A DNA stretch of 40,917 nt. It comes from Gammaproteobacteria bacterium (GTDB taxonomy: Bacteria > Pseudomonadota > Gammaproteobacteria > GRL18). Made by a program: the position numbers and the translations under genes. Below are positions 1,363 to 37,594 of the stretch, one piece after another; positions within the stretch are counted from its first letter, which is position 1, and each line of letters opens with the position of its first letter. The stretch lies in assembly GCA_027012135.1 (NCBI GenBank), contig JALUZF010000044.1:1-40917 (forward strand), in the 5' to 3' direction. The notes below the pieces were generated by a model. The model had not been told where the DNA came from. It ran no database searches and saw nothing but the letters and a program-made list of their open reading frames with translations.

Positions 1363-1369
1363 GCTTGGT

Positions 1370-1397
1370 ATTATATTCAATACCATAAATTTAGCAA
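1370..1397 (-). promoter_or_regulatory. Candidate sigma70 promoter of the toxin-antitoxin pair
   Basis: On the minus strand TTGCTA (1397-1392) and a perfect TATAAT (1375-1370) are separated by 16 bases. Transcription would begin close to the ATG at 1362, suggesting a leaderless or nearly leaderless toxin mRNA. This is pattern matching only. Confidence 0.4.
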
Positions 1398-5076: not shown

Positions 5077-5100
5077 ACACCCTGAAGCCGAGATATAAAT

Positions 5101-7979: not shown

Positions 7980-7997
7980 AGTAATAAAGGAACTGAA

Positions 7998-8354
7998 ATG
8001 AAACCCGGTAAAAAAGGCCTGGCCCGAATTATCGATGCCACCGGCTATTCCTGGCAGGGCTTTACTGCCGCCTGGAAAAATGAAGCAGCCTTCAGGGAAG
8101 AGCTCATGCTGTGTATCATTCTGGTACCCGCAGCCTTCTGGCTGGGACAATCCGGCACCGACATCGCCCTGATGATCGGTAGCCTGTTTATTGTCCTGAT
8201 TGCAGAAATCCTGAACTCGGCCATAGAAGCCGTAGTTGATCGCTTCGGCTCAGAACACCACGAACTCTCCGGCCGCGCCAAAGACATGGGCTCCGCCGCC
8301 GTATTCCTGGCCCTGACCAATGTCATAATTACCTGGATTCTGCTTCTGATATAA
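7998..8354 (+). CDS. dgkA: Diacylglycerol kinase
   Basis: Small integral membrane kinase that phosphorylates diacylglycerol (recycled from membrane-derived oligosaccharide or lipid A modification) to phosphatidic acid. It has 118 residues, with three hydrophobic spans around 35-50, 54-70 and 98-118. The catalytic motif EILNSAIEAVVD (70-81, with Glu70 and Glu77) is followed by HHELSGRAKDMGSAAVFL, both hallmarks of the family. Ribosome site AAGGA precedes the ATG. It ends the glycine operon by position; there is no known functional tie to glycine cleavage, so it may simply be a passenger. Confidence 0.95.
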   Translation: MKPGKKGLARIIDATGYSWQGFTAAWKNEAAFREELMLCIILVPAAFWLGQSGTDIALMIGSLFIVLIAEILNSAIEAVVDRFGSEHHELSGRAKDMGSAAVFLALTNVIITWILLLI

Positions 8355-8386
8355 TGACGAACAGTCACAAATATTTTATACTTATT

Positions 8387-8421
8387 CCTTAACACTTAAC
8401 ACTTAACACTTAACACTTAAC
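8387..8421 (+). repeat. 7-bp tandem repeat, five copies
   Basis: The unit ACTTAAC is repeated from 8387 to 8421, the first copy with C instead of A. It lies between dgkA and the PfkB kinase gene, ending 17 bases before the ATG. Such short arrays change length by slippage and could alter spacing in the leader of the next gene. Confidence 0.85.
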
Positions 8422-8438
8422 CCCCACAGGACCCACCA

Positions 8439-9371
8439 ATGACAGCACTAATCTGCGGCTCCTACGCTTACGACACCATTATGGTTTTCCCCGATCATTT
8501 TAAAAACCATATTCTACCCGATAAAATACACATGCTTAATGTCTCCTTTCTGGTACCTGATATGCGGCGTGAGTATGGTGGCTGTGCTGGTAATATTGCT
8601 TATAACCTGAACCTGCTCGGCGGCGATGCAACACCTATGGCAACCATAGGTACAGATTTTGCGCCTTATGCACAGTGGATGGATAAATGCGGCATCAGCC
8701 GTAAGCACTTAAAAGAAATTCCCGGCTCTTATACCGGGCAGGCATTCATTACCACGGATCAGGATGATAATCAGATCACTGCTTTTCACCCAGGAGCGAT
8801 GAATGAGTCTCACCAGAACAGGGTGGAGGATGCTGAAGGCGTTAGTATTGGTATTGTTTCTCCTGATGGACGTGACGGTATGATTGAACATGCTCGTCAG
8901 TTCAAGGAAGCAGGTATTCCTTTTATTTTTGATCCCGGTCAGGGTATGCCTATGTTTGGCGAGCAGGACTTAAAAACTTTTATTGAACAGGCGACCTGGT
9001 TAACTGTTAATGACTATGAAATGCAAATGTTAATGGATAAAACCGGTCTAACGGCAGGAGAAATTGCAGCCCAGGTGGATGCTTTAATTATTACGTTAGG
9101 CGGAGAAGGTTCAGAAATTATTACTCAGGACAAAACCATTAATATTCCTGCTGTGGAGACAAAAGCTGTACTGGATCCCACCGGTTGTGGTGATGCTTTT
9201 CGCAGCGGCCTGTTATATGGTTTAATGAATAATATCGACTGGGAAATTACGGGACGTATTGCCAGCCTGCTGGGATCCATAAAAATTGGACACCACGGTA
9301 CCCAGAATCATCACTTCACTGTCGACGAATTTAAAGCACGTTTTAAGTCCGAGTTTAATACTAACTTTTAA
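8439..9371 (+). CDS. PfkB-family carbohydrate/nucleoside kinase (adenosine kinase-like)
   Basis: 310 residues. The C-terminal PfkB signature DPTGCGDAFRSG (246-257) holds the catalytic base Asp252 and the anion-hole glycines. The N-terminal half has YGGCAGNIAYNLNLLGG (46-62), the GG...N pattern that contacts the substrate ribose. ITLGGEGSEI (218-227) is the usual strand before the ATP site. The overall layout, especially the ICGSYAYD start and the HHGTQNHHF close, resembles proteins annotated as adenosine kinase or carbohydrate kinase. The exact substrate cannot be decided from sequence. It is probably a soluble cytoplasmic enzyme and a single-gene unit, with a hairpin after the stop. Confidence 0.85.
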   Translation: MTALICGSYAYDTIMVFPDHFKNHILPDKIHMLNVSFLVPDMRREYGGCAGNIAYNLNLLGGDATPMATIGTDFAPYAQWMDKCGISRKHLKEIPGSYTGQAFITTDQDDNQITAFHPGAMNESHQNRVEDAEGVSIGIVSPDGRDGMIEHARQFKEAGIPFIFDPGQGMPMFGEQDLKTFIEQATWLTVNDYEMQMLMDKTGLTAGEIAAQVDALIITLGGEGSEIITQDKTINIPAVETKAVLDPTGCGDAFRSGLLYGLMNNIDWEITGRIASLLGSIKIGHHGTQNHHFTVDEFKARFKSEFNTNF

Positions 9372-9412
9372 TCCTTAATAAGCAGGACCTGGTCTTATTC
9401 TAAAATTTAGGG

Positions 9413-9437
9413 AGAACCCGATTTGTACCCGGGTTCT
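9413..9437 (+). terminator. Hairpin after the PfkB kinase gene
   Basis: AGAACCCG (9413-9420) pairs perfectly with CGGGTTCT (9430-9437), with a 9-base loop. The tail is pyrimidine-rich (TCTTGATTC) but lacks a real T-run, so termination may be weak. Confidence 0.45.
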
Positions 9438-9778
9438 TCTTGATTCAACTTCCTATTAACCCCTTGTATTAGAAGTATATTCTTTCTCTTGTTGCTTATA
9501 AAATGGTCATGTCTTGCGTTTTATAGATATGTTCTGTTTAAGCTTAATCAGTATTTATGTGAAATTTGTCATATAAATAACAGAAATTCCTGCAAATTAA
9601 TGAATTTTTATCATTGGATATTGCTTCTGATTTTTTTTCGGCGTATAAATAAAAGTGCCTGAAGTGATGTGTGCTTTGTGGGCGATTGACCGGGAAGTCA
9701 TCATGAGTATAAACAATCTGCTAGCATTCCGGTCTTTAATTATTGTATGTATGGAAGTAAAAAGGTAGGGATGTAACA
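9438..9778 (+). other. Long AT-rich leader region of the cold-shock gene
   Basis: Apart from the hairpin at its left edge, this 340-base stretch has no credible gene. It is AT-rich and includes a T-run near 9630. Cold-shock genes often carry long structured 5' leaders that act as thermosensors, and this could be one. I could not identify a specific cold box. The ribosome site before the ATG, AGGTAGGGA, is strong. Confidence 0.4.
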
Positions 9779-12434: not shown

Positions 12435-12470
12435 TCCCTTCTCTCTTTGGGAGAAGATCAAGATAAGGGC
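12435..12470 (+). repeat. REP-like short palindromic repeat, copy B
   Basis: CCTTCTCTCTTTGGGAGAAG followed by ATAAGGGC. It is the same family as 3361-3400 and 39602-39643. Its right end (AAGGG) lies about ten bases before the DsrE start codon and may serve as that gene's ribosome site. Confidence 0.55.
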
Positions 12471-12479
12471 GAAACACAA

Positions 12480-12944
12480 ATGAGTAAAAGAATTGCAATT
12501 ATTGCCAGCAAGGGCACACTGGACTGGGGATACCCACCGTTTATTCTGGCCAGCACAGCAGCGGCCCTGGGTTATGAGGTAGAAATTTTTTTTACCTTTT
12601 ATGGTCTGCAGTTACTGGAAAAAAATCTTAACCTGCAGGTTTCTTCTCTGGGTAATCCCGGTATGCCCATCCCTTTTCCCGCTCCGGTGATCCTGCAGGC
12701 CATGCCTGGTGTGCAGAATTTTATTACCAGTATGATGGAACGTAAACTTGCGGATAAGGGGGTAGCGCCTCTGGAAGAACTGCGTCAGGTGTGTCTGGAT
12801 TCAGGGGTGAAATTTACCGCCTGTCAGATGACTGTGGATTTATTTGAAGTGGATATTAATTCGTTTATCGATGAAGTAGGCTATGCCGGAACAGCCGCCT
12901 ATTTTGAGTTTGCCGGAGAGGCAGATATTACGCTTTATATATAA
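12480..12944 (+). CDS. DsrE/DsrF-like (DsrE2-type) protein 1
   Basis: 154 residues with a DsrE/F/H-type fold. The N-terminal part IAIIASKGTLDWGYPPFILASTAAA is followed by VEIFFTFYGLQLL. A single conserved cysteine, Cys115, lies in FTACQMTVDLFEV. In DsrE2-type proteins of sulfur oxidisers this position carries sulfur as a persulfide or thiosulfonate and exchanges it with TusA or rhodanese. No TusA, DsrC or Hdr gene is seen nearby, so the partner is unknown. A TTG start 33 bases upstream is possible, but the ATG with AAGGG before it is preferred. It faces a paralogue (13002-13529) with nearly identical N-terminus in convergent orientation. Confidence 0.8.
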   Translation: MSKRIAIIASKGTLDWGYPPFILASTAAALGYEVEIFFTFYGLQLLEKNLNLQVSSLGNPGMPIPFPAPVILQAMPGVQNFITSMMERKLADKGVAPLEELRQVCLDSGVKFTACQMTVDLFEVDINSFIDEVGYAGTAAYFEFAGEADITLYI

Positions 12945-13001: not shown

Positions 13002-13529
13002 TTACATATACAGAGACTGAGTAGTCTCAGAATCATTAGATTCTTCAAAGTACGTAGCAGCACCTACAAAATCACAGCCGTCAATAAAGTCAGAGTGTTC
13101 AAAACCAAACAGATCAACCGTCATCTGGCAGGCCAGGAATTTAACTTCCGCTTCCATACATAACTCTCTCAGTTCAGATAAAGGTGCAACACCATTATTG
13201 GCAATGGTCTTCTTCATCATGGATGTGGCAAAGGTTTCAATGCCGGGGATCTGCCAGACAATATTAGGAATTAATGGTGCCCAGTCAATAGCACGGAACC
13301 ACTCAGGACCCATTGGCATTTTCATAGGCATGTCAGGATTACCAATAGGAGTCACTTTCAGGGCTTCGGTGTCTTTCAACAATAATCTTAAGCCGTAGAA
13401 AGTAAAGAAGATAGAAACTTCTTTACCCAGTGCCGCCGCAGTACTGGCCAGAATAAACGGAGGGTAACCCCAGTCAAGTGTGCCTTTAGTGGCGATAATG
13501 GTTAATTTGGTATTAGAATTTGCTGCCAT
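13002..13529 (-). CDS. DsrE/DsrF-like (DsrE2-type) protein 2
   Basis: 175 residues, paralogous to the gene at 12480-12944. TKGTLDWGYPPFILASTAAALG is shared, as are the FFTFYGL strand and the cysteine motif FLACQMTVDLFGF with Cys134. It differs by an insertion of about 20 residues in the middle (EWFRAIDWAPLIPNIVWQIP) that may change oligomer contacts. The predicted role is sulfur transfer in the cytoplasm; the alternative is a generic peroxiredoxin-like DsrE protein with unknown partner. GGAGATTTAGAG precedes the ATG on the minus strand. It is divergent from the receiver gene at 13801 across a very AT-rich 270-base region. Confidence 0.82.
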   Translation of the reverse strand: MAANSNTKLTIIATKGTLDWGYPPFILASTAAALGKEVSIFFTFYGLRLLLKDTEALKVTPIGNPDMPMKMPMGPEWFRAIDWAPLIPNIVWQIPGIETFATSMMKKTIANNGVAPLSELRELCMEAEVKFLACQMTVDLFGFEHSDFIDGCDFVGAATYFEESNDSETTQSLYM

Positions 13530-22663: not shown

Positions 22664-23464
22664 TTAAATTTCCGGCTTAACCAGAACAACCGTGACATTA
22701 TCTTTACCGCCGGCTTCATTAGCAGCATCAATCAATGCCTGTGCAGCGGTGTTTAATGGACGGCTTTTATTTTCTTTCAAAATGGCTTCTATTTCAGCAT
22801 GGCTGAGCATATCACACAAACCGTCAGAGCACAGTAAAAATAGTTCACGCTTGTGCAGTTTAATGGTCTGCTGTTCTGCGACAATACGCTGCCAGGGGCC
22901 AATGGCCTTGTAGATAATATTATGTTTAGGAGCCGTGCCTTCACGGCCGGTATCCAGCCAGAGCTGATAATGGCTGTGATCGGTACTGAGCTGCTGCAGG
23001 GTATTGTCTGCAAAACGGTAGGTGCGGCTGTCTCCGACATTAAACGCATGTAACTGTTTTTTGGCTTTTTTGTGATAGGCATCAATCCAGAAACCGGTGA
23101 CTGTGGTGCCCATGCCCCGGCCTTCTGTCAGACCTTTGGCGATATTATAGCAGTGAGCCTGGTTATTGGCTTCCTCTATGGCATCCTGAAGTACGGAACT
23201 GAAACGGGTTGGGCCGGCTTCCTGCTGTTCATTAAGCATTTTTTTAATATGATTAAATATGGTTTCAATAGCCAGTTTACTGGCCACTTCTCCGGCATCA
23301 TGCCCACCCATGCCGTCAGCGACAATAAACAGCCCCAGCTTTTCATCAATCAGAAAATTATCTTCATTGAGTTTACGGCGCCGGCCCACATCACTGATAC
23401 CGGCAGAATACATGCGTACCGGATCAGGCTTATGAGTCAGTTTGTCAAAAAATTGTTTCAGCAT
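22664..23464 (-). CDS. PP2C-type serine/threonine protein phosphatase
   Basis: 266 residues, a single soluble PPM/PP2C domain. All acidic metal-binding motifs are visible: RKLNEDNF near the N-terminus, VADGMGGHDAGEVAS, GMGTTVTGFW with VGDSRTYRF, LCSDGLCDML and GKDNVTVVLV. The enzyme removes phosphate from Ser/Thr using two Mn2+ or Mg2+ ions. No partner kinase is visible in the window. It starts two bases after the syd stop and is followed by the Na/Pi transporter gene. In other bacteria such phosphatases pair with Hanks-type kinases in type VI secretion or stress control; neither is seen here. Confidence 0.93.
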   Translation of the reverse strand: MLKQFFDKLTHKPDPVRMYSAGISDVGRRRKLNEDNFLIDEKLGLFIVADGMGGHDAGEVASKLAIETIFNHIKKMLNEQQEAGPTRFSSVLQDAIEEANNQAHCYNIAKGLTEGRGMGTTVTGFWIDAYHKKAKKQLHAFNVGDSRTYRFADNTLQQLSTDHSHYQLWLDTGREGTAPKHNIIYKAIGPWQRIVAEQQTIKLHKRELFLLCSDGLCDMLSHAEIEAILKENKSRPLNTAAQALIDAANEAGGKDNVTVVLVKPEI

Positions 23465-23466: not shown

Positions 23467-24069
23467 TTATTTCGCTTCCAGCTTACCGTATTCCAGCTCA
23501 TCCAGAAAGTCAGTCAGGCTTACGGCCAGTACTTTTTCAAGCCCGTAGCCGGGGCGTTCCAGTACTACCTGGCCGGACTCATTGGTAATACTGATAATAT
23601 AATCAGAATCAGTACAGGCAATAAAAAAAGTGAGTTCCTGTTTATTACGGATCCTGTTCAGGGCATGACCCAGCTGATTTTCAATTAAACGCTGCATATC
23701 ATCCTCATTCCAGACAAACATCAGACTTAAATTGCCCTGCTGAAAAACGGCATCCACGTGATCAGACCAGTAACGGCTGAAAAATACCCGGATATCCGGA
23801 TGCAGCCGGATTTCCAGTGCTTTTTCCAGGCCTGCCAGGTCGTTTTTGTCCGGGCTGTCAGGGCGCAGAAAGGGCTGCCAGTGAATGGAATGCTGCATCT
23901 GTTCTGACATAAACGGCTTACCCTGCTGGCAGGATGACAGCCACTGTGCATCGTATTCAGTCACCGGTAGGTCGCCGGTCCGGGCTTCAACGGTATTGAT
24001 AAAGCGCTTAAAAAAATTATCCAGACTGTTTTGAGTGTGGTGTAAGTTTTGATTATCAGTAACAGACAT
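23467..24069 (-). CDS. syd: SecY-interacting protein Syd
   Basis: 200 residues. The pattern matches Syd: an N-terminal helix LDNFFKRFINTV, the conserved pair HWQPFLRP, then LEKALEIRLHPDIRVFFSRYWS and FVWNEDDMQRLIENQLGHAL, and the closing LAVSLTDFLDELE. In E. coli Syd is a peripheral inner-membrane protein that binds SecY and affects faulty translocons. Here the N-terminal part is about 20 residues longer than in E. coli as I recall it. It leads a tight cluster with a PP2C phosphatase (gap two bases), suggesting that the phosphatase could act on the translocon or membrane stress. The ribosome site is weak. Confidence 0.85.
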   Translation of the reverse strand: MSVTDNQNLHHTQNSLDNFFKRFINTVEARTGDLPVTEYDAQWLSSCQQGKPFMSEQMQHSIHWQPFLRPDSPDKNDLAGLEKALEIRLHPDIRVFFSRYWSDHVDAVFQQGNLSLMFVWNEDDMQRLIENQLGHALNRIRNKQELTFFIACTDSDYIISITNESGQVVLERPGYGLEKVLAVSLTDFLDELEYGKLEAK

Positions 24070-24151: not shown

Positions 24152-24775
24152 CTATCCGGTTAAGGTTCCCATATTTAGTTCACCCTTACAGATATTTTGC
24201 AGCTGCTGGCTGGTTTCTGCCATGCTGTCCTGTTCTGGCTCCAGAGTAAAAACAACCTGCTCCTGATATTCTACATCAGTTAGCGGCACATCATGGGTGT
24301 CAAGAAAGTGTCGGATAGCGGATTCATAGCAGTAAGGGAAACGAATGGTGACAGCTGTTCTCCGTATAATTTCCTTAACGGCTAATTGTTCAATGGCTGC
24401 CTGGGTACTATTGCTGTAGGCGCGAACCAGACCGCCGGCACCAAGTTTGATACCGCCGAAATAGCGGCTGACCACGCAGATAATTTCCCCGTATCCACTG
24501 TGCTGCAGAACATTTAAAATAGGTTTGCCTGCAGTCCCCGAAGGTTCTCCGGCATCAGAAAAACGCACTGCTGAAGCAGAATCAGGCGGGCAGGCAATAT
24601 AGGCCCAGCAATGATGCCGGGCATCAGGGTAACGCTGTTTATCCTGTTCAATAATGGCCATAGCCTGTTGTGGATCCGGGCAGTGAGTAATATGGGCAAT
24701 AAAACGGCTGCGTTTTATTGCCGTGGTCACTTCAATATCATGAGCCGGAATAAAATAAGCTTCAGCAGCGGACAT
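24152..24775 (-). CDS. YigZ/IMPACT-family protein
   Basis: 207 residues from ATG 24775. The N-terminal UPF0029/Impact domain shows KRSRFIAHITHC, DARHHCWAYI, FSDAGEPSGTAGKPIL and VVSRYFGGIKLGAGGLVRAY, all signature segments. The C-terminal half is the ferredoxin-like domain YRTAVTIRFPYCYESA in diverged form. Bacterial YigZ resembles a translation-factor-like fold and can bind nucleic acid; its role is not settled. An in-frame GTG at 24814 would give 220 residues, but the extra 13 residues are hydrophobic and unconserved. It lies between the giant CNBD gene and syd on the same strand, with gaps of about 75 and 80 bases. Confidence 0.9.
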   Translation of the reverse strand: MSAAEAYFIPAHDIEVTTAIKRSRFIAHITHCPDPQQAMAIIEQDKQRYPDARHHCWAYIACPPDSASAVRFSDAGEPSGTAGKPILNVLQHSGYGEIICVVSRYFGGIKLGAGGLVRAYSNSTQAAIEQLAVKEIIRRTAVTIRFPYCYESAIRHFLDTHDVPLTDVEYQEQVVFTLEPEQDSMAETSQQLQNICKGELNMGTLTG

Positions 24776-24848
24776 CAGGTAGCGAACAGCAATATAAATT
24801 TTAATAAAAAGCACATCATTTAACAGTGCTGAGCCGGTTCAGTAGCCA

Positions 24849-27800
24849 TTATGTTTCTTTCTTGATGGAGTCATAAGCGGCTTTCAGTTCATCATGGATA
24901 GAGCTGTCTGAAGGGCTGGTGCCGACAGGTGCTCCGTTAACCACCTGTTGTGAATCCTCAGGATGCAGTACCGGTGGAACGGCCGTGGTACTCTGAGCTT
25001 TGGCCATAATGTCTTCACGGCGGCGTTTGGCTTCTTCAATAGCCTGTTTGCGTGCTTCTTCCCTTGCTCTTAACAGGGCATTCTGGCGTTCAATTTCACG
25101 GCTGCGTTGAGATTCGGCTTCCAGCTGGCTGCGGGCCTGTTCGGCCTCCTGCTGGAGACGTTTCAGTTCATCACGTTGCAGGGCAATGGACTGTTCCTGC
25201 AGTTTTTTATTGATTTCAATCTGTTCCAGCTGTTCTTTTAGCTCCAGGGCTTCTGCCCGGGCCTGCTGTTCCATTTCTTCTTTCTGCTGTTTCAGGCGTT
25301 GTGCTTCTGTCTGGGCTTCCTGTTTGGCCTGCTCAATACGCTCAAGCTGTTCCTTGAGTTCCTGGGCTTCCTGCTGAGCCTGCTGTTCCATTTCTTCTTT
25401 CTGCCGTTTGAGACGTTCTGCTTCTTTCTGAGCCTCCTGTTTGGTTGCTTCCAGCTGCTGCTTTAGTTCTTCAGCTTCCTTAAGTACCTGCTGCTCCATG
25501 TCTTCCTTTTCCTGTTTCAGCTGTTCGGATTTCTTCTGTGCTTCCAGGCGGGTCTGTTCCAGTTGTTCCTTAAGCTGCAGGGCTTCTTCATGAGCCTGCT
25601 GTTCAAGCTGCTCTTTCTGCTGGCGAAGTTGTTCGGCTTCTGCCAGAGCCTGCTGTTTGGCTGTTTCGACTTCTGCCTTGAAGGCCAGGATTTCCTGCTG
25701 GTAATTAAGTGCTTCCTGTTCCAGCTTCTGGGCTTCTTCAGCCAGCAACAGTTTTTCTTCTTCCATCTGCTGACGCTGTCTGGCAAGCTGGGCTTCAAGC
25801 TCCCTGCGCTCGGTTTCAACTTCCCGGGCCATATCCTCACGCATTTGCTCCATTTCAGCGCGAGCCTGTTCGGTTTCGGCCCGAACCTGCTCCAGTTCTT
25901 CCTCAAATTCCCTGCGGGCCTGTTCAGCCGCCTGGGCGCGTTTATTGGCACTTTCAATACGTTCCTGGGCTTCGGCCAGTTCTGCAGAGCGTAAGCGTTC
26001 CTGTTCTTCCCGAGCCCGCTTTTCTTCTTTCATCTGTTCACTCAGACGCTGAATTTCCTGCTGAGCTTCCAGACGGGCCTGTTCTACATTCTGACGCTCC
26101 TGTTCACGTCGGTCGGCTTCTTCCTGGGCTTTATTGATTTTTTCCTGTAGAGCCAGTTCCTGCTCCATACTAAGGCGGGAGAATTCTTCAGCCAGAGCGG
26201 TCTGGGCGGCTTCCATTTCCTGTTTTAGCTGTTCAATTTCTTCTTCGCTGGTCTGCAGGTGGCCTAACTGCTTTTCCTGCAGCTTAAGTTGTTCCTGCTG
26301 CTGTTTTTCCAGTTCTCTGGCCATTTCCTCCTTGGCCAGTTCCATTTCCTGTTTCAGGCGCTCAACTTCATCCAGAGCGGCCTTACGGTCGGCATCAATT
26401 TTTTCGGCCCGTTCTTTTTCTTCCTGAGCTTTAATACGAGCTTCATGAATTTCTGCCTGCTGGCGGGCATCAGCATCTTTTCTCAGGCGTTCAATTTCTT
26501 CCTTTGCCCGGATCAGTTCTTCTTCTGCCTGGGAGGACAGTTTGGCCTGTGACTCGGACTGTTCCAGAGCCTTTTCTGCTTCTTCACGCAGGCGCCGGGC
26601 TTCTTCGATGGCTGCCTCTGCCCGCTGGGCTTCTTCCTGAGACTGTTTGCGTGCTTCTTCCAGAGCGGCTTCTTTTTCACTAAGCTGCTCCTGGCTGGCC
26701 TGGCGAATGGCTTCTTCTGCTTCAATACGAGCCTGCTCAGCGGCTTCTGCTCTGCGGGCTTCCTCTTCTGCTTTCTGATGTGCCTGTTCAGACTCTTCGC
26801 GCAGACGCCTGGCTTCCTGTTCGGCATTTTCAGCCCGTTCAGCTTCGGCCTTGGCTTTTTCCAGGGCTTCATTAATTTCTCTTGATTTCTTTTCCAGGGC
26901 TTCCTTATGCAGCTTTTTGGCCTGTTCGGTGGCTTCCTTACGGGCGGTTTCGGCGGCAGCAGCCCGCTGGGCTTCTTCTTCTGCCTGCTTACGGGCTGTT
27001 TCAGCTTCCAGGCGTAATTTTTCAGCATTTTCCTCCGCTTTCAGGCGGGCTGCTTCAGCTTCGGCTTTTAGACGGGTTTCTTCATCGACCTGCTGTTTAA
27101 TTTTTTCCAGTTCAGCCGATGTCTGTCCCTGTTCCAGGGTCTGGGACTCCAGCTGCACGGCTTTTAATTGTGCGGCCTTCAGAGCCAGTTCAGCCTGTTG
27201 GGCACGGCGGGCTTCTTCTTCCGCTTTTTGCAGAGCCAGCTGAGCTTCGCTGCGCAGATCGGCGGCCATGAGTTCGGCTTCCTTGCGGGCCTGTTCAGCC
27301 TGAGATAGCTGTCTGGACTGATCTTCTGCCACTTTACGGGCTGCTTCAATTTCCGGTGAAGTAATGTTTTCCGCTTTTACCGCTTCTGCTGTCTTAACGG
27401 CTTCCTTTGCAGCAACGGGTGCTTCTGTTTCAGCTGTTTCAGCCGAACTGGCTGGTGTGGGCGCTTCAGGGGATTTTTCTTCAGTGACAGCAGGACGGGT
27501 AATATCAGCTTCGCCAATACCATTCTCAATAATGGAACAGTTGTAGCCCTGCTGAATAAACAGAAAGGCTGCCGCACTGCTGCGGCTTTCATGTCCGGAA
27601 TAGGCTATATAATGTTTTTCCGGAGATAGTTGATCCAGCTGGGTACGGATCAGGTTAATAGGGATATTAATACTGTTATCCAGGCCATTAGCCTGATGTT
27701 CATCTTCATTTCGGACATCGATAAGCTGGTATTGATCTTCTTTGAGCGTTTTTACTTCTTCAGGTTTAATGCGGTGGATCAGTGGTTCCACCAGCAGCTC

Positions 27801-28532
27801 AATAAAGTCTTTTTTGTCCAGTGACAGGATCACCCCGTCAGTTTTCATGGTGACACTGGCACTGCGAATGCCGCCGGTAATTAAGGCTTCTTCGCCAAAG
27901 CCGTCGCCCAGGCGTAATTCAGCCAGAGGCACCTGTTCTCCTGAAGTCGGACTGGTTTTGGTGACAACACAGCGGCCCTGCTGGATAATATAAAACTTGT
28001 CATCATTGGCGTCATTTTCCCGGATAATGGTTTCTCCCCTGGCCAGGGGGGTTTCCTGCAGGCGCATCATCAGGGCCTGAATATTGGCTGCGGGTAATTG
28101 TAAAAAAGCATTGGACTGCAGAAAACGGGTCATCCAGTCTTCATCATCAAGTTCATTGACTTCAATGCTGGAGGGCGCATTCCAGTTCATCAGGATATCC
28201 AGCAGATCCTTGTCAATGAGCAGAATACTGATATCAGTTTTGGCCTTGGCAGAAGCAGGGCGGGGAATTTTGTCAGCAATGGGGGAACGGGCAGCATCGC
28301 TGCCGGCTTCAATAATCTGCCGTTTGCCATCGGCCTTTTTAAGTTCGATCTTGCCTGTCAGCAGGTAAACAGTCCACTTGTCGCGATCACCTCGTTTAAA
28401 AAGCACCCGTCCGGCAGGTATTTTCTGCACAGCCGACTTTTCAATAACTTCTTTAACTTTATCAATACTTAAAGAGTCCAGGGGATGGAATTTCTTTATG
28501 ACATTGACATCAAGATTAGGCGCAGCAGCCAT
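24849..28532 (-). CDS. CNBD-CNBD-rhodanese-coiled-coil giant protein
   Basis: 1227 residues and no signal peptide. Residues 14-115 and 135-250 are two cyclic-nucleotide-binding-like domains. The second keeps a good phosphate cassette (GFGEEALITGGIRSASV, 211-227); the first is degenerate. Residues about 255-345 form a rhodanese fold (IDVRNEDEH, then the active loop SGHESR at 312-317), but the catalytic cysteine position is Ser312, so it is probably inactive. After an Ala/Pro/Glu-rich linker (345-385), roughly 800 residues form a Glu/Gln/Ala-rich coiled coil, including four 35-38-residue tandem repeats at about 964-1110. A non-helical tail of about 50 residues ends the chain. It could be a filamentous scaffold or polar organiser that reads cAMP or cGMP. 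It is divergent from hrpA. Confidence 0.85.
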   Translation of the reverse strand: MAAAPNLDVNVIKKFHPLDSLSIDKVKEVIEKSAVQKIPAGRVLFKRGDRDKWTVYLLTGKIELKKADGKRQIIEAGSDAARSPIADKIPRPASAKAKTDISILLIDKDLLDILMNWNAPSSIEVNELDDEDWMTRFLQSNAFLQLPAANIQALMMRLQETPLARGETIIRENDANDDKFYIIQQGRCVVTKTSPTSGEQVPLAELRLGDGFGEEALITGGIRSASVTMKTDGVILSLDKKDFIELLVEPLIHRIKPEEVKTLKEDQYQLIDVRNEDEHQANGLDNSINIPINLIRTQLDQLSPEKHYIAYSGHESRSSAAAFLFIQQGYNCSIIENGIGEADITRPAVTEEKSPEAPTPASSAETAETEAPVAAKEAVKTAEAVKAENITSPEIEAARKVAEDQSRQLSQAEQARKEAELMAADLRSEAQLALQKAEEEARRAQQAELALKAAQLKAVQLESQTLEQGQTSAELEKIKQQVDEETRLKAEAEAARLKAEENAEKLRLEAETARKQAEEEAQRAAAAETARKEATEQAKKLHKEALEKKSREINEALEKAKAEAERAENAEQEARRLREESEQAHQKAEEEARRAEAAEQARIEAEEAIRQASQEQLSEKEAALEEARKQSQEEAQRAEAAIEEARRLREEAEKALEQSESQAKLSSQAEEELIRAKEEIERLRKDADARQQAEIHEARIKAQEEKERAEKIDADRKAALDEVERLKQEMELAKEEMARELEKQQQEQLKLQEKQLGHLQTSEEEIEQLKQEMEAAQTALAEEFSRLSMEQELALQEKINKAQEEADRREQERQNVEQARLEAQQEIQRLSEQMKEEKRAREEQERLRSAELAEAQERIESANKRAQAAEQARREFEEELEQVRAETEQARAEMEQMREDMAREVETERRELEAQLARQRQQMEEEKLLLAEEAQKLEQEALNYQQEILAFKAEVETAKQQALAEAEQLRQQKEQLEQQAHEEALQLKEQLEQTRLEAQKKSEQLKQEKEDMEQQVLKEAEELKQQLEATKQEAQKEAERLKRQKEEMEQQAQQEAQELKEQLERIEQAKQEAQTEAQRLKQQKEEMEQQARAEALELKEQLEQIEINKKLQEQSIALQRDELKRLQQEAEQARSQLEAESQRSREIERQNALLRAREEARKQAIEEAKRRREDIMAKAQSTTAVPPVLHPEDSQQVVNGAPVGTSPSDSSIHDELKAAYDSIKKET
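25203..25643 (-). repeat. Four in-frame coiled-coil repeats
   Basis: Within the giant gene, residues about 964-1110 consist of four consecutive units of 35-38 residues. Each has the form (Q)xEAxxLKxxKEEMEQQAxxEA followed by xELKEQLE. The units differ at scattered positions, so the duplications are not very recent. Confidence 0.7.
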
Positions 28533-28717: not shown

Positions 28718-31700
28718 ATGCCACAGTCCATCACATATCAGAAATATTATGCACGTTTATCAGGGCTGTTAGGGCAGTGCTATCTATACGATCGCTATCC
28801 TCTTAATAAACAGCTTGCGCAATTAAAGCAGCAACTGAAAAAACTGTCCTTTAACGATTTCAGACAGAAAAGCAGAAAAAAAGGCGCAGATAATAACAAT
28901 AAACCGCTTAAACAACTGCAGCAAAAGTTCGAGCTTTGCGAACAACGTATTGAGCAATCTATTGCCAGGGTTGAACAACGCCGGCAGGGGGTTCCTAAAG
29001 TTGATTTTCCGTCAGAACTGCCGGTTACTCAAAAAGCACAGCAGATTAAACAATTACTGGAACAGCACCAGGTTATTGTAGTGGCCGGTGAAACCGGTTC
29101 AGGAAAAACCACGCAGCTGCCTAAAATTGCCCTGCTGGCCGGGCGGGGGATCTATGGCCAGATTGCGCATACCCAGCCCCGACGGCTGGCGGCACGTAGT
29201 GTGGCGGCCCGCATCGCAGAAGAACTGCATACACCGCTGGGCGATAAGGTGGGGTTTAAAGTGCGTTTCAGTGACCACAGTCATCCTGATACTCTGATTA
29301 AACTGATGACTGACGGTATTCTGCTGGCGGAGACCCAGACCGATCGGTTTTTAAATCAATACGATACCATTATTATTGATGAAGCCCATGAGCGCAGTCT
29401 CAATATTGATTTTCTGCTGGGCTATATTAAGCAGATCCTGCCCCGCCGTCCTGATCTGAGGCTTATTATTACCTCAGCCACCATTGATACCGGGCGCTTT
29501 TCTGAATTTTTTAATCAGGCACCGGTGATTGAAGTATCCGGGCGTACCTGGCCGGTTGAAATCCGTTACCGGCCTCTGCAGGATGCACAGGATTTGACGG
29601 ATGGTATTGTGGCAGCGGTGGATGAACTGAGTCAGGAACAGGATGGTGATATTCTGGTGTTTCTGTCCGGTGAAAAGGACATCCGTGAAACCACGGAAGC
29701 TCTGCGCAAACATCCTGTTTACCACCATGAGCAGCGCACGGAAATCCTGCCCTTGTACGCCCGTCTGTCACCGGCGGAACAGAGCCGGATTTTTGCGCCC
29801 CATGCAAAACAGCGCATTATTCTGGCCACCAATGTAGCAGAAACCTCCTTGACGGTACCGGGTATCCGTTATGTGATAGATACCGGTTATGCCCGTATCA
29901 GCCGCTATAGTGTCCGCCACAAAATCCAGCGTCTGCCCATTGAAAAAATATCCCAGGCATCAGCCCGTCAGCGCAGCGGCCGTTGCGGGCGGGTCAGTGA
30001 CGGGGTGGCAATTCGTCTGTACAGTGAAGCCGATCATAATCAGCGGCCGGCCTTTACCGAACCGGAATTGCTCAGAACCAATCTGGCTCAGGTGATTCTG
30101 CAGATGCTGTCGCTGCACCTTGGGGACATCCAGGCCTTTCCGTTTCTGGAAAAACCTTCGGCCAAACAGATCAATGATGGTTTTTTACTGCTGGAGCAGT
30201 TAGGGGCGATTACCCCGCAGCGCCGCCTGACGGCCATTGGCCGTTCCCTGTCCCGTCTGTCGGTGGATCCCAGGATAGGGCGGGTGATTATAGCTGCAGA
30301 AAAACAGGGGGTATTGTCCGAAGTGTTAATTATTGCTTCAGCACTGAGTTGTCAGGACCCCCGTGAACGCCCCGCAGACAAACAGCAGGCGGCCGATGAA
30401 AAACATAATGAATATGCCAGTAAACAATCGGATTTTATCACTTATCTGAATTTATGGTTTCGTTATGAAGCACAGCGGCGGCATCTGTCGCAAAATAAAC
30501 TGCGCAAATACTGTCAGAACCACTTTTTATCCTTTATGCGTATGCGGGAATGGCGGGAACTGTATCAGCAGCTTTATACCCAGACCAGGGAATTGAAGTT
30601 TCGCTTTAACCAACTGCCTGACGTGGCACACAATGAGCTGTTTGCAGATGATGATAAACGTCTGGATTATGCTGCTGTCCATCAGGCCTTGCTGACCGGT
30701 TTTCTGGGTAATATCGGCTTTAGGGAAGATAAAAATAATTATCTTGGCGCCAGGAATATGCGTTTTGGTATTTTCCCCGGTTCAAAATTGTATAAACGCA
30801 AACCCAAATGGATTATGGCCGCAGAAATTGTGGAAACCTCAGCCGTTTATGCCCGCATTGTGGCCGGTATCGAACCGGCCTGGCTGGAGCAGCAGGCCCG
30901 GCATCTGCTAAAGCAGCATTATTTTGAGCCATTCTGGGAAGCAAAAAGCGGTCAGGTCTCCGCCTGGTCCAGAGTCAGTTTATATGGTTTGATCATTAAC
31001 CCAAAAAAGAAAGTCAATTACGGCCCGGTTGATCCGCAGGCCGCCCAGGAAATTTTTATCCGCGATGCGCTGGTCACTGGCGAATACCGGGATCATAACC
31101 GGAAAATCCCGCCTTTTATCCAGCATAATCTGGATTTAATCAGGCAACTGGAACATCTTGAGCATAAGTCCAGACGTAAGGATCTGCTGGTGGATGATCT
31201 GGTGATTTTTGAGTTTTACCAGCAGCGCATCCGCCATGATCTGCAGCAGCGGGGTAAGGAAAAACAGTATATTTATTCCCGTTCGGCCTTTGAACAATGG
31301 CGCCGGAAAGTTGAAAAGGAGCAGCCTGACTATCTGTTTCTGCAGCAGGCAGACCTGTTAAAGAAAGATTCTGATCATATTTCAGATGAGCTCTATCCTC
31401 CTTATATTCAAAGTGGAGATCTGCAGCTGCCGCTGGAATATCACTTTCTGCCCGGTCATGCCCTGGACGGTGTGACGGTGATCCTGCCCCTGGCCGTCAT
31501 TAACCAGCTGGATGAATCGGTATTCGACTGGCTGGTACCGGGGCTGATCCGGGAAAAAATTACCCTGCTGATCCGGGCGCTGCCCAAGGTGATCCGCAAA
31601 CAGTTTGTGCCGGTACCGGATACTGTGACGGCCTTTCTGGAAGCGGTACCCTACCGCGAAGGTGAACTGGTGCCGAGGCTGGTGGCATTTTTAAAATCCC

Positions 31701-32839
31701 GGCTGTCTTATACCCTGGCCAATCAGCTGGACCATGAAATGTCTAAAACCATTCATGCCGACTTTGATACTAAAATACCTGAACATCTGAAAATGAATTT
31801 CAGGCTGATTGATAATAATGGCCGGGAGCTGGATTCATCCCGGGACTTTCAGCAATTAAAACAGCAGTGGTCCGGGCAGGCCATGGCGCAGCTGGATGCC
31901 GTGGTGGATGACTCCATAGAGCGTCAGGGGATTAAAGGCTGGGATTTTGATGGTCTGGATGAGCAAATGGAGATTGACCGTCACGGCCTGCTCATGACAC
32001 TGTATCCGGCTTTGCAGGATCAGCAGGACAGTGTGTCCATTAAATTGTTTGACCAGGCTGAAACTGCCCGGATTAATCATGCTCAGGGTGTCTATAGACT
32101 GCTGTTTCTGGCCCTGCAGCCACAGCTAAAGGTGCTGCAGAAACAGTTGCCGGACATTAATAAGGCCTGTTTATTATTTACGGCCTTTGGCTCCTGCCAG
32201 GTACTCAGACAGGATATTATACAGGCACTGCTGGTCAATGCGCTGCATAAGGTTCTGCAGCAGGGGGATATTGAGTCAGTAACACAGCTGCACCAGATCC
32301 GCAGCAGACAGCAGTTTGAACACTTGCTGTCTATACTGCAGTCGGAGCTGGAGAATGAAAAAGGTACTGAACTCATGGGTGCATTGCTGAATATTCTGCA
32401 AGAGGCGCAGAAACTGTTCAAAACCCTGAAGGGCAATATACCGTTTAATCTGGTTAAAACCATAACCGATATTAAAGCCCAGCAAAAGCAGCTGGTTTAT
32501 CCCGGCTTTGTGGCACAGACGCCTGTACAATGGCTTAAACGGCTGCCCCGATATTTTAAGGGTATGCAACTACGCCTGGAAAAAGCCCGCAATGACTATC
32601 GTCGTGATGCCCTGAATCAGGCTCAGATCACACCTTTATGGGAAAAATATCAGAATCGTATTGAACAGCTAAAAACCGATAAGAACAGTCCGGCTGAAAT
32701 TTATTTTGCCTGGCCGGAATTAACGGAATTTCGCTGGTTAATTGAAGAGTTGAGAATATCTCTGTTCGCTCAGGAACTTAAAACCTGCCAGCCGGTTTCG
32801 GTGAAACGGCTGGAGAAAAAATGGCAGCAGATACCCTGA
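28718..32839 (+). CDS. hrpA: ATP-dependent RNA helicase HrpA
   Basis: DEAH-box RNA helicase of 1373 residues; E. coli HrpA has 1300. The helicase core is complete: Walker A GETGSGKTT (124-132), TQPRRLAARSVAAR (motif Ia), DEAHERSLNIDF (motif II, Asp221-His224), SATID (motif III), ILVFLSGEKDIRE (motif IV) and QRSGRCGR (motif VI). An N-terminal basic helical region precedes it. The long C-terminal half (about 600-1370) matches the HA2, OB and DUF3418 regions of HrpA. HrpA is involved in mRNA processing and in rescue of stalled or collided ribosomes in E. coli. It appears monocistronic, and converges with the SAP gene over 30 bases. Confidence 0.95.
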   Translation: MPQSITYQKYYARLSGLLGQCYLYDRYPLNKQLAQLKQQLKKLSFNDFRQKSRKKGADNNNKPLKQLQQKFELCEQRIEQSIARVEQRRQGVPKVDFPSELPVTQKAQQIKQLLEQHQVIVVAGETGSGKTTQLPKIALLAGRGIYGQIAHTQPRRLAARSVAARIAEELHTPLGDKVGFKVRFSDHSHPDTLIKLMTDGILLAETQTDRFLNQYDTIIIDEAHERSLNIDFLLGYIKQILPRRPDLRLIITSATIDTGRFSEFFNQAPVIEVSGRTWPVEIRYRPLQDAQDLTDGIVAAVDELSQEQDGDILVFLSGEKDIRETTEALRKHPVYHHEQRTEILPLYARLSPAEQSRIFAPHAKQRIILATNVAETSLTVPGIRYVIDTGYARISRYSVRHKIQRLPIEKISQASARQRSGRCGRVSDGVAIRLYSEADHNQRPAFTEPELLRTNLAQVILQMLSLHLGDIQAFPFLEKPSAKQINDGFLLLEQLGAITPQRRLTAIGRSLSRLSVDPRIGRVIIAAEKQGVLSEVLIIASALSCQDPRERPADKQQAADEKHNEYASKQSDFITYLNLWFRYEAQRRHLSQNKLRKYCQNHFLSFMRMREWRELYQQLYTQTRELKFRFNQLPDVAHNELFADDDKRLDYAAVHQALLTGFLGNIGFREDKNNYLGARNMRFGIFPGSKLYKRKPKWIMAAEIVETSAVYARIVAGIEPAWLEQQARHLLKQHYFEPFWEAKSGQVSAWSRVSLYGLIINPKKKVNYGPVDPQAAQEIFIRDALVTGEYRDHNRKIPPFIQHNLDLIRQLEHLEHKSRRKDLLVDDLVIFEFYQQRIRHDLQQRGKEKQYIYSRSAFEQWRRKVEKEQPDYLFLQQADLLKKDSDHISDELYPPYIQSGDLQLPLEYHFLPGHALDGVTVILPLAVINQLDESVFDWLVPGLIREKITLLIRALPKVIRKQFVPVPDTVTAFLEAVPYREGELVPRLVAFLKSRLSYTLANQLDHEMSKTIHADFDTKIPEHLKMNFRLIDNNGRELDSSRDFQQLKQQWSGQAMAQLDAVVDDSIERQGIKGWDFDGLDEQMEIDRHGLLMTLYPALQDQQDSVSIKLFDQAETARINHAQGVYRLLFLALQPQLKVLQKQLPDINKACLLFTAFGSCQVLRQDIIQALLVNALHKVLQQGDIESVTQLHQIRSRQQFEHLLSILQSELENEKGTELMGALLNILQEAQKLFKTLKGNIPFNLVKTITDIKAQQKQLVYPGFVAQTPVQWLKRLPRYFKGMQLRLEKARNDYRRDALNQAQITPLWEKYQNRIEQLKTDKNSPAEIYFAWPELTEFRWLIEELRISLFAQELKTCQPVSVKRLEKKWQQIP

Positions 32840-34050: not shown

Positions 34051-34407
34051 TTAACAGGCCCATTTCTGAGGATTTTCCTGCTGCTGGTTGAGCAGTTGCT
34101 GAATAACCCCCATGCCGTTAGCAAGAGTATTTTTATGTTCAGATGGAGAATTTCTGAACATAATGCCAATACCCTTACCACTGTTGTGAATGACAATTGC
34201 CGGGATCTGTATCGGAATTTCTGATAAAGAGGGCAGGTTCAGGGTGATTTCTATGTCTGAATAATGTGACAGGGATGCCACGGCCGTTTCTATAAACATA
34301 CCATCGTGACTGATATTGGTTGCCTTACCTCTGAGCAGTCCAATCGCGGGATAGTTGATCACCAGGTCCAGTTGTACCGGCTTTCTGCTGTTCCAACGTT
34401 TGTTCAT
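34051..34407 (-). CDS. PilZ-domain protein
   Basis: 118 residues from the ATG at 34407, which is preceded by a strong GGGGGGAAC ribosome site; an upstream frame to 34476 lacks this. The domain starts RWNSRKPVQLDLVINYP and continues with the NISHDGMFIET strand, matching the PilZ signature ((D/N)xSxxG). The usual RxxxR has become RWNSRK, so c-di-GMP binding is plausible. The C-terminal tail is Gln-rich. The protein probably reads c-di-GMP and affects motility or surface behaviour, which would fit the cheV gene further right. Confidence 0.82.
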   Translation of the reverse strand: MNKRWNSRKPVQLDLVINYPAIGLLRGKATNISHDGMFIETAVASLSHYSDIEITLNLPSLSEIPIQIPAIVIHNSGKGIGIMFRNSPSEHKNTLANGMGVIQQLLNQQQENPQKWAC

Positions 34408-34512
34408 AATGTTCCCCCCATTTTTATATTTAGTTATTTTGTGCATGATTTTAGTATCTTGCTTTTGCGCATGCATCTACATGTTGTTTTCTGGATTAAA
34501 AATTATAAGTGG

Positions 34513-35103: not shown

Positions 35104-35712
35104 TTAACGGTTATTGGCCTGAATAGTGACTTTAACCAGTTCAGCCACTGAACTGGCTTCCATTTTTTCCATCATCCGGGCACGATGTACTTCTACTGTC
35201 TTGATGCTGACATTGAGTTCATGGGCAATAACCTTATTGGGTTTGCCTTCGGTTACTCTTAACATAACCTCATGTTCTCTGGGCGTCAGTGAGGCTATAC
35301 GCCGGTCAATTGATTCGTTCTGTATCAGGGATTCTCGTGCTTCACTGTTCTGTTTCAGTCCGCGTTGTACTGCATCGAGGAGTAACTGATCATTAAAGGG
35401 TTTTTCAATAAAATCAAAAGCACCGCGTTTTAAGGCTCTTACTGCCATGGGGACATCACCGTGGCCGGTAATAAAAATCAGGGGCAGGTTGATATCTCGT
35501 TCTTTCAGCTCTTCCTGGGCTTCAAGGCCGCTCATGCCAGGCATCCTGACGTCCATAACTATGCAGCCGGACTCATTATTATAGTTTTCCAGAAATTCAT
35601 CGGCAGAAATAAAGGTTTGAACTTTTAAACCAATGGATTCAATTAACCAGGCGGTTGATTGCCGTACCGCTTCGTCGTCATCCACAATAAAGACTAAAGC
35701 ATCATCACTCAT
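35104..35712 (-). CDS. FixJ/TtrR-type response regulator
   Basis: 202 residues. The receiver domain (1-120) has Asp11-Asp13, phospho-acceptor Asp54 (IVMDVRMPGM), Thr82 and Lys104 (FIEKPFNDQ). A LuxR-type helix-turn-helix (about 138-198) follows: SLTPREHEVMLRVTEGKPNK, then IAHELNVSIKTVEVHRARMMEKM. Residue patterns such as GHGDVPMAVRALKRGAFDFI are typical of FixJ/TtrR. It starts inside the 3' end of the kinase gene (overlap of 8 bases), so kinase and regulator form one operon. No target operon (such as tetrathionate reductase) is in the window. Confidence 0.92.
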   Translation of the reverse strand: MSDDALVFIVDDDEAVRQSTAWLIESIGLKVQTFISADEFLENYNNESGCIVMDVRMPGMSGLEAQEELKERDINLPLIFITGHGDVPMAVRALKRGAFDFIEKPFNDQLLLDAVQRGLKQNSEARESLIQNESIDRRIASLTPREHEVMLRVTEGKPNKVIAHELNVSIKTVEVHRARMMEKMEASSVAELVKVTIQANNR

Positions 35713-37594
35713 TATTATTATTTCCTAAATACTCTTTTGTTACAGCTTGTTCCGTGACCGGTTCTTCAGTAACAGGCAGTGTAAAACAGAATCGGGCACC
35801 ACTGACGGGGTTATTTTCGGCATATAATTTACCATCATGAGCCTCGATAATAGAACTGCTGATTGATAGCCCCATGCCCATACCACTGGTTTTGGTGGTA
35901 AAGAAGGGGTTAAAAATCCGCTTGAGCTTATCTTCACTGATTCCGTGACCGCTGTCAATAACACACAATTCAACAAGTTTATTATCCTTTCTTCGGGTGA
36001 CAACGGTAATAGCAGGCTGTTCATTTCCAGACATGGCTTCAATACCGTTTTTGAGCAGGTTAATCAGAACCTGTTCAATCTGGATAATATCCGCCAGTAC
36101 GGGAGGCAGATCTTCTTCCAGATCCAGGGTCAGATTAACCTGTTTATTGTGTAACTGGCTTTCCAGAAACCCCGTGACTTCATTAACAATATGGTTAATA
36201 TCCGTGTAGGTTTTATGTGATTCACCTTTGCGTACAAAGCTGCGTAGCCGGCGGATAATTCCACCGGCCCGATCTGCCTGCTGGGCTGTTAGCTGCAGGG
36301 CATTAATAATGGCTTCAGGATCATGCTTATCCATTTTAAGCAGACGGATACAGCCCTGAACATAGGTATGGATGGCTGAGAGCGGCTGATTCAGTTCATG
36401 AGCCAGACCGGAAGCCATTTCTCCCATGGTACTGAGGCGGGCAACATGGGCCAGTTCGGCCTGATGGGTCAGTGCCTGTTCCTGAGCGTGCTGACGTTCC
36501 TTTATCTCCAGCTCCAGAGATTCCTTGGAATTTTTAAGACGATTATTTAAATCCCGGGAAGAACGCAGGTACATGATCAGTATAACCAGCAGGAAACAGA
36601 TAATCAGAAAACTGAGCCAGTACTGTAATTTTACTGAAAAGGAAGAAGGAGGAGGGGATTGGGCAGTTTCCATTTCTCTGGACAGGGCAAATAAATCAGC
36701 AAGACCATGGTATTTCTGGGCAAAAGTCCAGTGGTACTGTTCAGAGAGATAGTTAACATGATCATTTTTTTTATGGCCAATCAACAGGGTAATGATCTGA
36801 TTGACAATTTCATCATTAATAAACCAGGCCCGGGCAAAGGCCCATTCAGGAACCAGTACCGAGCTGTGCAGAAATGGTGCATGCCAGCCTCTGCGGGGAT
36901 GCACCAGACGTAAGGTTTCCAGGGTATTTTTATCCAGTTGTTTTTCCAGCAGGCCGGACTTGGTGATCAGGGCATCGATTTTCCCTGCTTTCAGCCAGGA
37001 CAGGGCCAGGTCGATACGCTCAAGAACCAGCAGATCCACATTTTCTCCAATATTCAGATCATGAATATTGAGGAATTTTTCCAGGAACAGTTCAGAAGTT
37101 GAATATTCGTTTTCCAGCAGAGCTATGCGTTTACCCTGCAGATCGGAAATGCGGGTGACTTCGGCATTGTTGTTTAGAGTAAAAATTGATAAAGCCTCAG
37201 AACTGATGTATTCGCCGTCAAATTTTTCTGTACGGGTCAGCAGGCGTAGTACATCATGTTTTTTTTCCAGAATCAGGTAGTTGAATGCATCAGTGATAAC
37301 AAAATCCAGTTCATCATTTTCCAGGGCATTGGCCAGTTTATTTGGGGGGAGAAATACTGTCTCAAAATGGTATTCTGGATGTTGATTCAGGCGAGCAATG
37401 GTCAGCTGCCAGGGTGAACCTTCTAACTGATGCTGATGGGTGGCATGCAGGGTTAATATACCAATATTAAAAGTCTGTTTCTGGGGGGCAGACCAGGCTG
37501 GTATAGCCGGGTAAAATAAGCACAACAGGGTTAAGAATAAAAATGCAGACAAAGAAATGAAACATGGCTGCTTTTTTAAAGGCATGCGTAGCAA
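35705..37594 (-). CDS. TtrS-like sensor histidine kinase with PhnD-type periplasmic domain
   Basis: 629 residues. The chain is: a signal/anchor segment (about 11-36), a periplasmic PhnD/TtrS-like binding domain (about 40-300) with the pattern NIGILTLHATHQ, DFVITDAFNYL and DLQGKRIALLENEY, a membrane span (326-343), a short coiled coil, HisKA with His399 in GLAHELNQPLSAIHTY, and an HATPase domain with NLLKNGIEAM, SGHGISEDKLKRIFNPFFTT and GMGMGLSIS. TtrS detects tetrathionate in Salmonella; here the ligand is uncertain (oxyanion or sulfur compound). It overlaps the start of the regulator gene. No transporter or reductase is next to it. Confidence 0.9.
   Translation of the reverse strand: MLRMPLKKQPCFISLSAFLFLTLLCLFYPAIPAWSAPQKQTFNIGILTLHATHQHQLEGSPWQLTIARLNQHPEYHFETVFLPPNKLANALENDELDFVITDAFNYLILEKKHDVLRLLTRTEKFDGEYISSEALSIFTLNNNAEVTRISDLQGKRIALLENEYSTSELFLEKFLNIHDLNIGENVDLLVLERIDLALSWLKAGKIDALITKSGLLEKQLDKNTLETLRLVHPRRGWHAPFLHSSVLVPEWAFARAWFINDEIVNQIITLLIGHKKNDHVNYLSEQYHWTFAQKYHGLADLFALSREMETAQSPPPSSFSVKLQYWLSFLIICFLLVILIMYLRSSRDLNNRLKNSKESLELEIKERQHAQEQALTHQAELAHVARLSTMGEMASGLAHELNQPLSAIHTYVQGCIRLLKMDKHDPEAIINALQLTAQQADRAGGIIRRLRSFVRKGESHKTYTDINHIVNEVTGFLESQLHNKQVNLTLDLEEDLPPVLADIIQIEQVLINLLKNGIEAMSGNEQPAITVVTRRKDNKLVELCVIDSGHGISEDKLKRIFNPFFTTKTSGMGMGLSISSSIIEAHDGKLYAENNPVSGARFCFTLPVTEEPVTEQAVTKEYLGNNNNE

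Follow-up and report, generated by a model that had tools for sequence, protein, structure and literature searches.

Introduction

In most bacteria cyclic AMP (cAMP) exerts global regulation only via CRP; so it is stated in a review (PMC11139211). CbpA (PA4704) from Pseudomonas aeruginosa is described as a polar cAMP-binding protein (PMC3019171, PMC11139211). Catalytically idle rhodanese domains are described as binding modules: that of TBC1D23 helps to grip coiled-coil golgins (PMC7274447), and that of USP8 binds proteins or peptides (PMC12057046). Cyclic-nucleotide-binding (CNB) domains are carried by family 2B encapsulins, and the cysteine-desulfurase operons of family 2A often hold a separate rhodanese (PMC8346489). 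Here we examined a protein of 1227 amino acids (aa) in which two CNB domains, a rhodanese fold lacking the catalytic Cys, a long helical rod and a short C-terminal helix are joined. It starts with ATG and is encoded on the minus strand at 24849-28532 of a 40,917-nucleotide stretch, below called the window (contig JALUZF010000044.1 of the Gammaproteobacteria bacterium assembly GCA_027012135.1). We found no paper describing the CNB and rhodanese domain pair; it may be mentioned in Burroughs and Aravind's 2023 survey of the rhodanese superfamily. The protein is one lineage of a common gammaproteobacterial family which we could not find described. On balance, and by a small step beyond even chances, we favor that it is a cytosolic cAMP effector, not a transcription factor, in which the pseudo-rhodanese would bind a partner, and rod and tip would link or space a second one, dependent on cAMP. 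An earlier sequence-only reading of this locus had started from a real observation and was sound in considering the rhodanese dead; as a whole, its interpretation was partly supported.

Results and discussion

The tandem CNB head has one cAMP-type site

A Pfam scan of the protein returned two cNMP_binding stretches (E 4e-26; 91.3 bits versus a cut-off of 27.5) and, following the second, one Rhodanese domain at residues 257-339 (E 1e-10). The scan detected no helix-turn-helix, no kinase domain and no further Pfam domain in the 1227 residues. An AlphaFold2 model of residues 1-346, built from 57 aligned sequences, showed two CNB folds and a rhodanese fold (mean predicted local distance difference test score, pLDDT, 84.2; predicted template modeling score, pTM, 0.57). 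The best PDB matches of this head were the tandem CNB domains of PKG I beta (CNB-A/B; E 2.7e-20). A second look at the PDB matched CNB2 with the CNB domains of PKA and PKG (Table 1). A chance resemblance was rejected in view of the agreement of Pfam, fold and alignment and the strong purifying selection acting on the gene.

Two CNB-like domains, one with a good phosphate cassette, had been claimed in the sequence-only reading, and the family alignment bears this out. The CNB2 cassette starts with G209, contains F212-G-E214 and ends in R223-S-A. Of 114 distinct sequences, 112 retain Glu214 and 113 retain Arg223. The nine-residue spacing between these two, like the R-S-A, is that of PKA and CRP; CNB1 has no such Glu-Arg pair. 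There, the Glu position is occupied by Arg82 and across the family by a basic residue, Arg or Lys, in 89/114 sequences; the cassette Glu is not among the commonest residues of this domain. The second hallmark, Arg91, is retained, as is an Arg at this position in 107/114 sequences. The head thus combines a cAMP-type site with a degenerate one. Because Glu214 and Arg223 are kept to this extent and the same genome encodes two class III cyclases, cAMP is the likely ligand of CNB2; the choice of cAMP over cGMP is inferred. The genome also encodes a Crp-like protein, as judged from its sequence, and has seven protein-kinase matches.

Sensitivity to either cAMP or cyclic di-GMP (c-di-GMP) had been envisaged. 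While cAMP is likely, nothing was found that favors c-di-GMP, and CNB2 carries a cAMP-type cassette. Here and below, neighborhood counts are from 97 relatives with neighborhoods and are raw, i.e. without a random-gene baseline. Some relatives have a neighboring PilZ gene (10/97 loci), which is on the opposite strand and accompanied by a neighbor-gene cluster (cluster 3) whose first residues, judged by eye, resemble DNA polymerase III delta'. This arrangement is therefore probably a housekeeping cluster. In the window, a PilZ gene (34051-34476; Pfam) lies beyond hrpA.

Degenerate heads resembling CNB1 were also seen on other proteins of the same genome. A 413-aa protein (L002, 715-1956) and a 401-aa protein (L003, 742-1947) carry such a head in front of an HDOD-type body, confirmed by Pfam in the former and assigned by sequence in the latter. 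The degenerate CNB may thus be a module of its own. A further protein of this genome (L156, 237-3267), of which the cyclase part was scanned, looks like a series of receivers that ends in a class III cyclase; it adjoins one that reads like a TPR-FGE protein.

The rhodanese domain has lost its catalytic Cys

The modeled residues 250-345 matched the rhodanese portion of the persulfide reductase from Shewanella loihica with Z ~16 and a root-mean-square deviation of 1.8-1.9 Å over ~95 residues. That Ser312 takes the place of the catalytic Cys, as the sequence-only reading had it, was borne out by the family alignment column and by a phmmer alignment in which Ser312 pairs with residue 531 of the reductase, a Cys in 3nta and 4ocg and a Ser in the C531S mutant entries. 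We looked for a Cys elsewhere in the loop and found none; Cys188 and Cys332 are the only ones in the entire protein. Across the 114 distinct sequences the catalytic column contains Cys in 95, Ser in 18 and Gly in one. In the clade of the window protein (17 sequences, support 97) Ser312, Glu315 and Arg317 are invariant (17/17), and the position of Glu315 is Gly in nearly all other sequences. The Ser312 codons differ within the clade (TCC, TCA, TCT). The nearest outgroup, L050, retains Cys in its loop (CDNGSRS). In the family alignment Asp272, Arg274 and Glu278 of the rhodanese core are kept, along with Arg317.

The ratio of non-synonymous to synonymous substitution rates (dN/dS) was determined against L165, a copy from the same genus (dS ~0.17-0.26 in the longer segments). 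It was 0.048 for the rhodanese domain. Pairs with L036, L037, L038, L041 and L042 gave no ratio there because synonymous sites were saturated. For the window clade, the invariant Ser, Glu and Arg (17/17 sequences) and the dN/dS of 0.048 led us to reject a decaying rhodanese. Judged by alignment and model, the rhodanese fold is intact, the nucleophile is lost and a new S-x-x-E-x-R loop is fixed. The earlier proposal that a dead rhodanese acts as a binding module fits the nucleophile loss together with purifying selection.

Fixation of S-x-x-E-x-R in the whole clade goes beyond what a neutral loss of Cys would give. Together with the retained Arg317 and core residues it would suit a loop re-tooled as a site for a small anion, a phospho-residue or a sulfur species, which would make the protein a two-input sensor for cAMP and a second ligand. 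On the other hand, Glu in the Gly position places a negative charge in a loop whose usual role is to bind anions, and we consider such a sensor unlikely. The preferred reading remains a pseudo-rhodanese that holds a partner.

A Cys-to-Ser loss was also seen outside the window clade. L063 has two tandem tailed members (4995-7340 and 7408-9702), the first with Ser at the Cys position (SDTGSRA).

A long conserved helical rod and its tip

The sequence-only reading had an 800-residue coiled coil follow the rhodanese. A long helix is indeed predicted; it is shorter, about 770 residues (396-1165), and gives way to a disordered linker and a 16-residue helix. Modeling of the last 168 residues gave a 121-residue helix, the disordered linker and the short helix. 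The rod stretch scored (767 residues from 396) contains 2 Pro or Gly and 44% charged residues; i/i+4 pairs of opposite charge amounted to 0.17 versus 0.04 for like charge. As one straight helix, residues 396-1165 would measure ~115 nm (1.5 Å per residue).

Residues 396-950 are 74% identical with eight full-length relatives compared to 14% for a shuffled null. In this part the length differs by +1 or +2 residues in six of the relatives and by +23 in two, without net deletion. A 117-bp repeat (25228-25444) lies around the length-variable residues 951-1100. Against L165, dN/dS was 0.022 for residues 396-950, which makes the rod the most constrained long stretch of the protein, 0.076 for 951-1100 and 0.153 for 1101-1165. 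The other segments gave 0.126 (CNB1), 0.042 (CNB2), 0.267 (first linker) and 0.193 (second linker). Thus, neither is the rhodanese decaying nor is the coil mere filler. The suggested use of the coil as a scaffold fits this constraint.

The hydrophobic period was 3.52-3.58 in 200-residue windows from 491 to 1130. A helical rod of this length, near-heptad in its middle and second half, would suit assembly into a cytoskeletal filament switched by cAMP. An acidic rod rich in Glu, Gln and Ala with one conserved tip fits a tether equally well, however, and Pfam gave no cytoskeletal family in the 1227-aa protein. The filament had been put forward in the sequence-only reading; no evidence here bears on polymerization, and we regard it as very improbable.

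L035 (6067-7464) from the same genus has a 465-aa copy with a head that is 96% identical; most of the rod is absent and the end is changed. It may be a real truncation or an assembly artefact. In the clade members L036, L048 and L053 the sequence stops at a contig end. Many of the terminator-like sites (16 versus 8.6 expected) lie within the coil-coding stretch; promoter-like sites (8 versus 5.8) were near chance.

The family and the distribution of the tail

Members of the CNB-CNB-rhodanese family (E <= 1e-30) were found in 110 of 232 genomes sampled from the class. A scan of genome contigs yielded at least 553 relatives; the 80 kept were, by title, Gammaproteobacteria or unranked proteobacterial bins. 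The working set comprised 122 sequences, 114 of them distinct. The domain order noted in the sequence-only reading is therefore real, yet it is not peculiar to the source genome and belongs to a widespread family. With a tail defined as 80 residues or more, 38 of the distinct sequences were tailed and 76 tail-less; L050 was counted as tail-less, but is cut by its contig end. Thus, most members are tail-less proteins of ~350 aa.

The loop C-x-x-G-x-R is kept in 71/76 tail-less and 11/38 tailed sequences (Fisher p 1e-12). Because it is so consistently kept, the tail-less Cys-loop relatives are probably active or persulfide-carrying. The tailed forms are found together in one part of the tree, with a single change of tail state when L050 is scored as open. 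The base of this part has a support of 84 and was drawn open; several long branches meet there. Counted on the tree, tailed rows had 8 loop changes in 26.9 branch units and tail-less rows 4 in 43.1 (p 0.045; 0.13 without the three longest tail-less branches). A test of tail versus loop in independent pairs had only 2 pairs (median p 1). With the tailed proteins confined to a single region of the tree, the link between tail and loop amounts to nearly one event and is not independent evidence. That gaining a tail loosens the catalytic loop is suggestive only.

Some tailed members end differently. L055, L112 and L051 are CNB-CNB-rhodanese proteins with an FGE-sulfatase (SUMF1-like) domain after a long coil (Pfam). 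The FGE-ending proteins have 1446-1767 aa; L061, L142 and L144 end in similar letters, by eye rather than by Pfam.

The majority of tail-less members raises the question whether the head does the work and the tail is decorative. CbpA, reportedly presented by Endoh and Engel in 2009, is said to have tandem CNB domains, a degenerate first and an intact second one, and the window protein shares this layout. By analogy cAMP would send the protein to the cell pole, and the rod would only lengthen or oligomerize it. Against such a decorative rod speak its being the most constrained long stretch and its conserved C-terminal helix, and the likeness to CbpA is one of layout. We consider this view doubtful, and prefer a rod that serves a linking or spacing function.

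A proposed cAMP-dependent link between partners

A PP2C-type phosphatase gene in the same array (Table 1) suggests that Ser/Thr phospho-signaling belongs to the same pathway. PP2C genes occurred in three contexts: in eight loci of the window clade, in L068 (PP2C then FHA) and in L110/L141/L145. In L110 the run consists of the head gene, an opposite-strand GAF-HD protein, a CHASE2-kinase, PP2C, FHA and a CHASE2-cyclase. L060 has a CHASE2-cyclase next door, and in L081 an FHA-cyclase is five genes away. The genome context suggests that the CNB-CNB-rhodanese family is joined to cyclases and Ser/Thr phospho-signaling.

Most likely, going by its domains, the window protein belongs among the tandem-CNB cAMP receptors without a DNA-binding domain. 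We propose that cAMP from the class III cyclases of the genome binds to CNB2 and shifts its C-terminal helix, which runs into the rhodanese. The shift would be read out by the pseudo-rhodanese, which would hold a protein or peptide partner without sulfur transfer. The rod would pair the heads and bring the C-terminal helix to another partner or site. In this way the protein would link or space two partners depending on cAMP; PP2C-linked phosphorylation might act upstream or downstream.

Several data weigh against this proposal. The hydrophobic periodicity is weak at the start of the rod (381-580), and the opposite charges at i/i+4 also suit a single alpha-helix. Thus, the rod may be either a coiled-coil dimer or a single helix. 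Rods are short in the clade members L035 (465 aa), L046 (458), L047 (471) and L049 (458), which indicates that a long rod is not essential in every one of them. In the L165 pair CNB1 and the rod end 1101-1165 are less constrained. The PP2C link was seen in three contexts, as raw counts. Finally, CRP boxes in the window were close to expectation (20 loose matches versus 16.5), and none was located between the gene and hrpA.

A farther-reaching view, which we put forward tentatively as the less probable case, takes the CNB-CNB-rhodanese proteins as a second widespread class of bacterial cAMP effectors beside CRP. An ancestor of ~350 aa would have coupled cAMP to a persulfide-carrying rhodanese. 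One lineage would have dropped the sulfur chemistry, fixed S-x-x-E-x-R and become a cAMP-controlled tether on the 100-nm scale with a docking tip helix. Non-transcriptional cAMP signaling would become directly testable with a conserved protein that probably binds cAMP and has no DNA-binding domain. In the window clade nature offers a clean example of an enzyme domain that became a pseudoenzyme and stayed under selection, along with a long conserved rod.

Genomic surroundings

The features of the gene and its neighbors are compiled in Table 1.

Table 1. Domains of the 1227-aa protein and adjacent genes in the window.
Feature	Position	Strand	Remarks
Whole coding sequence: CNB1-CNB2-pseudo-rhodanese-helical rod-C-terminal helix	24849..28532	-	1227 aa
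CNB1, residues 1-118, degenerate CNB fold	28179..28532	-	AlphaFold2 fold; Arg82 replaces ribose-binding Glu; Pro90-Arg91 conserved
CNB2, residues 131-251, intact phosphate-binding cassette	27780..28142	-	Pfam; PDB fold matches PKA/PKG CNB, Z ~16
Phosphate-binding cassette, residues 209-225, GDGFGEEALITGGIRSA	27858..27908	-	E214 112/114, R223 113/114 sequences
Rhodanese-fold domain, residues 252-340	27513..27779	-	Pfam; AlphaFold2; persulfide-reductase fold match
Active-site loop S312-GHESRS	27579..27599	-	Ser at Cys position, Glu315 at Gly position, Arg317 kept
Variable linker, residues 343-395	27348..27506	-	27% identity with 8 relatives
Helical rod, residues 396-1165	25038..27347	-	396-950 conserved; 951-1100 repeat-like, length-variable; 1101-1165 conserved
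Disordered linker, residues 1166-1209	24906..25037	-	Low pLDDT; 46% identity with 8 relatives
Conserved C-terminal helix, residues 1210-1227	24852..24905	-	75% identity with 8 relatives; helix in model
YigZ/IMPACT-family protein, next gene downstream, same strand	24152..24814	-	Same place in 8/97 loci
Syd (SecY-interacting) homologue	23467..24069	-	Within 5 genes in 10/97 loci
PP2C-type Ser/Thr phosphatase, further along same-strand array	22664..23464	-	PP2C within 5 genes in 12/97 loci
HrpA helicase, divergent neighbor	28718..32839	+	Same place in 15/97 loci

Some tail-less members immediately follow genes for an ammonium transporter and PII (Amt 18/97, PII 16/97 loci; L064, L057, L087-L089, L096, L098, L099, L115, L119, L126 and others). 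An AroE-like gene, read from the start of its sequence, lies beside tail-less relatives in 18/97 loci. Near the gene, Rfam gave no match, and neither the PADLOC defense scan nor a plasmid search returned one. Elsewhere on the plus strand of the window two glycine riboswitch aptamers (1735-1870 and 2079-2205; 51 and 33 bits, above gathering score) precede an open reading frame at 2305-3345 by a short distance, and a Group II intron RNA match (632-701; 48.4 bits) is near a PIN-domain reading frame at 949-1386 (minus strand). Two DsrE2-family genes face each other convergently (12447-12944, plus; 13002-13529, minus). A histidine kinase with a phosphonate-type periplasmic binding domain is beside a LuxR-type response regulator (35104-37594, minus).

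Comparison with known systems

Unlike the CRP/FNR transcription factors the window protein has no C-terminal helix-turn-helix by Pfam. With PKA regulatory subunits and PKG, its best PDB matches, it shares two tandem CNB domains; it differs in having no kinase domain, one degenerate CNB site, and an added rhodanese and rod. It is like CbpA, the closest case described, in the degenerate first and intact second CNB attributed to the latter and as a probable cAMP effector without a DNA-binding domain. CbpA is said to lack a rhodanese and a rod, both of which are present here, and the two proteins are set side by side by layout, not by sequence.

In the encapsulin-linked systems CNB and rhodanese are separate, whereas here they are fused. 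A rhodanese fold without catalysis, putative in the window protein, is shared with USP8 and TBC1D23, by analogy to which a binding role is proposed. The latter two are eukaryotic, TBC1D23 keeps a buried Cys, and to our knowledge neither has a CNB domain. The loop is a natural counterpart of the C531S mutant of the NADH-dependent persulfide reductase from Shewanella loihica, one of the best fold matches, with the same Cys-to-Ser change; there, the rhodanese is part of an active oxidoreductase. The tail-less CNB-CNB-rhodanese proteins of Gammaproteobacteria have the same head (~30-50% identical), yet carry no rod and mostly a Cys loop, whereas the window protein combines this head with a rod and a Ser loop.

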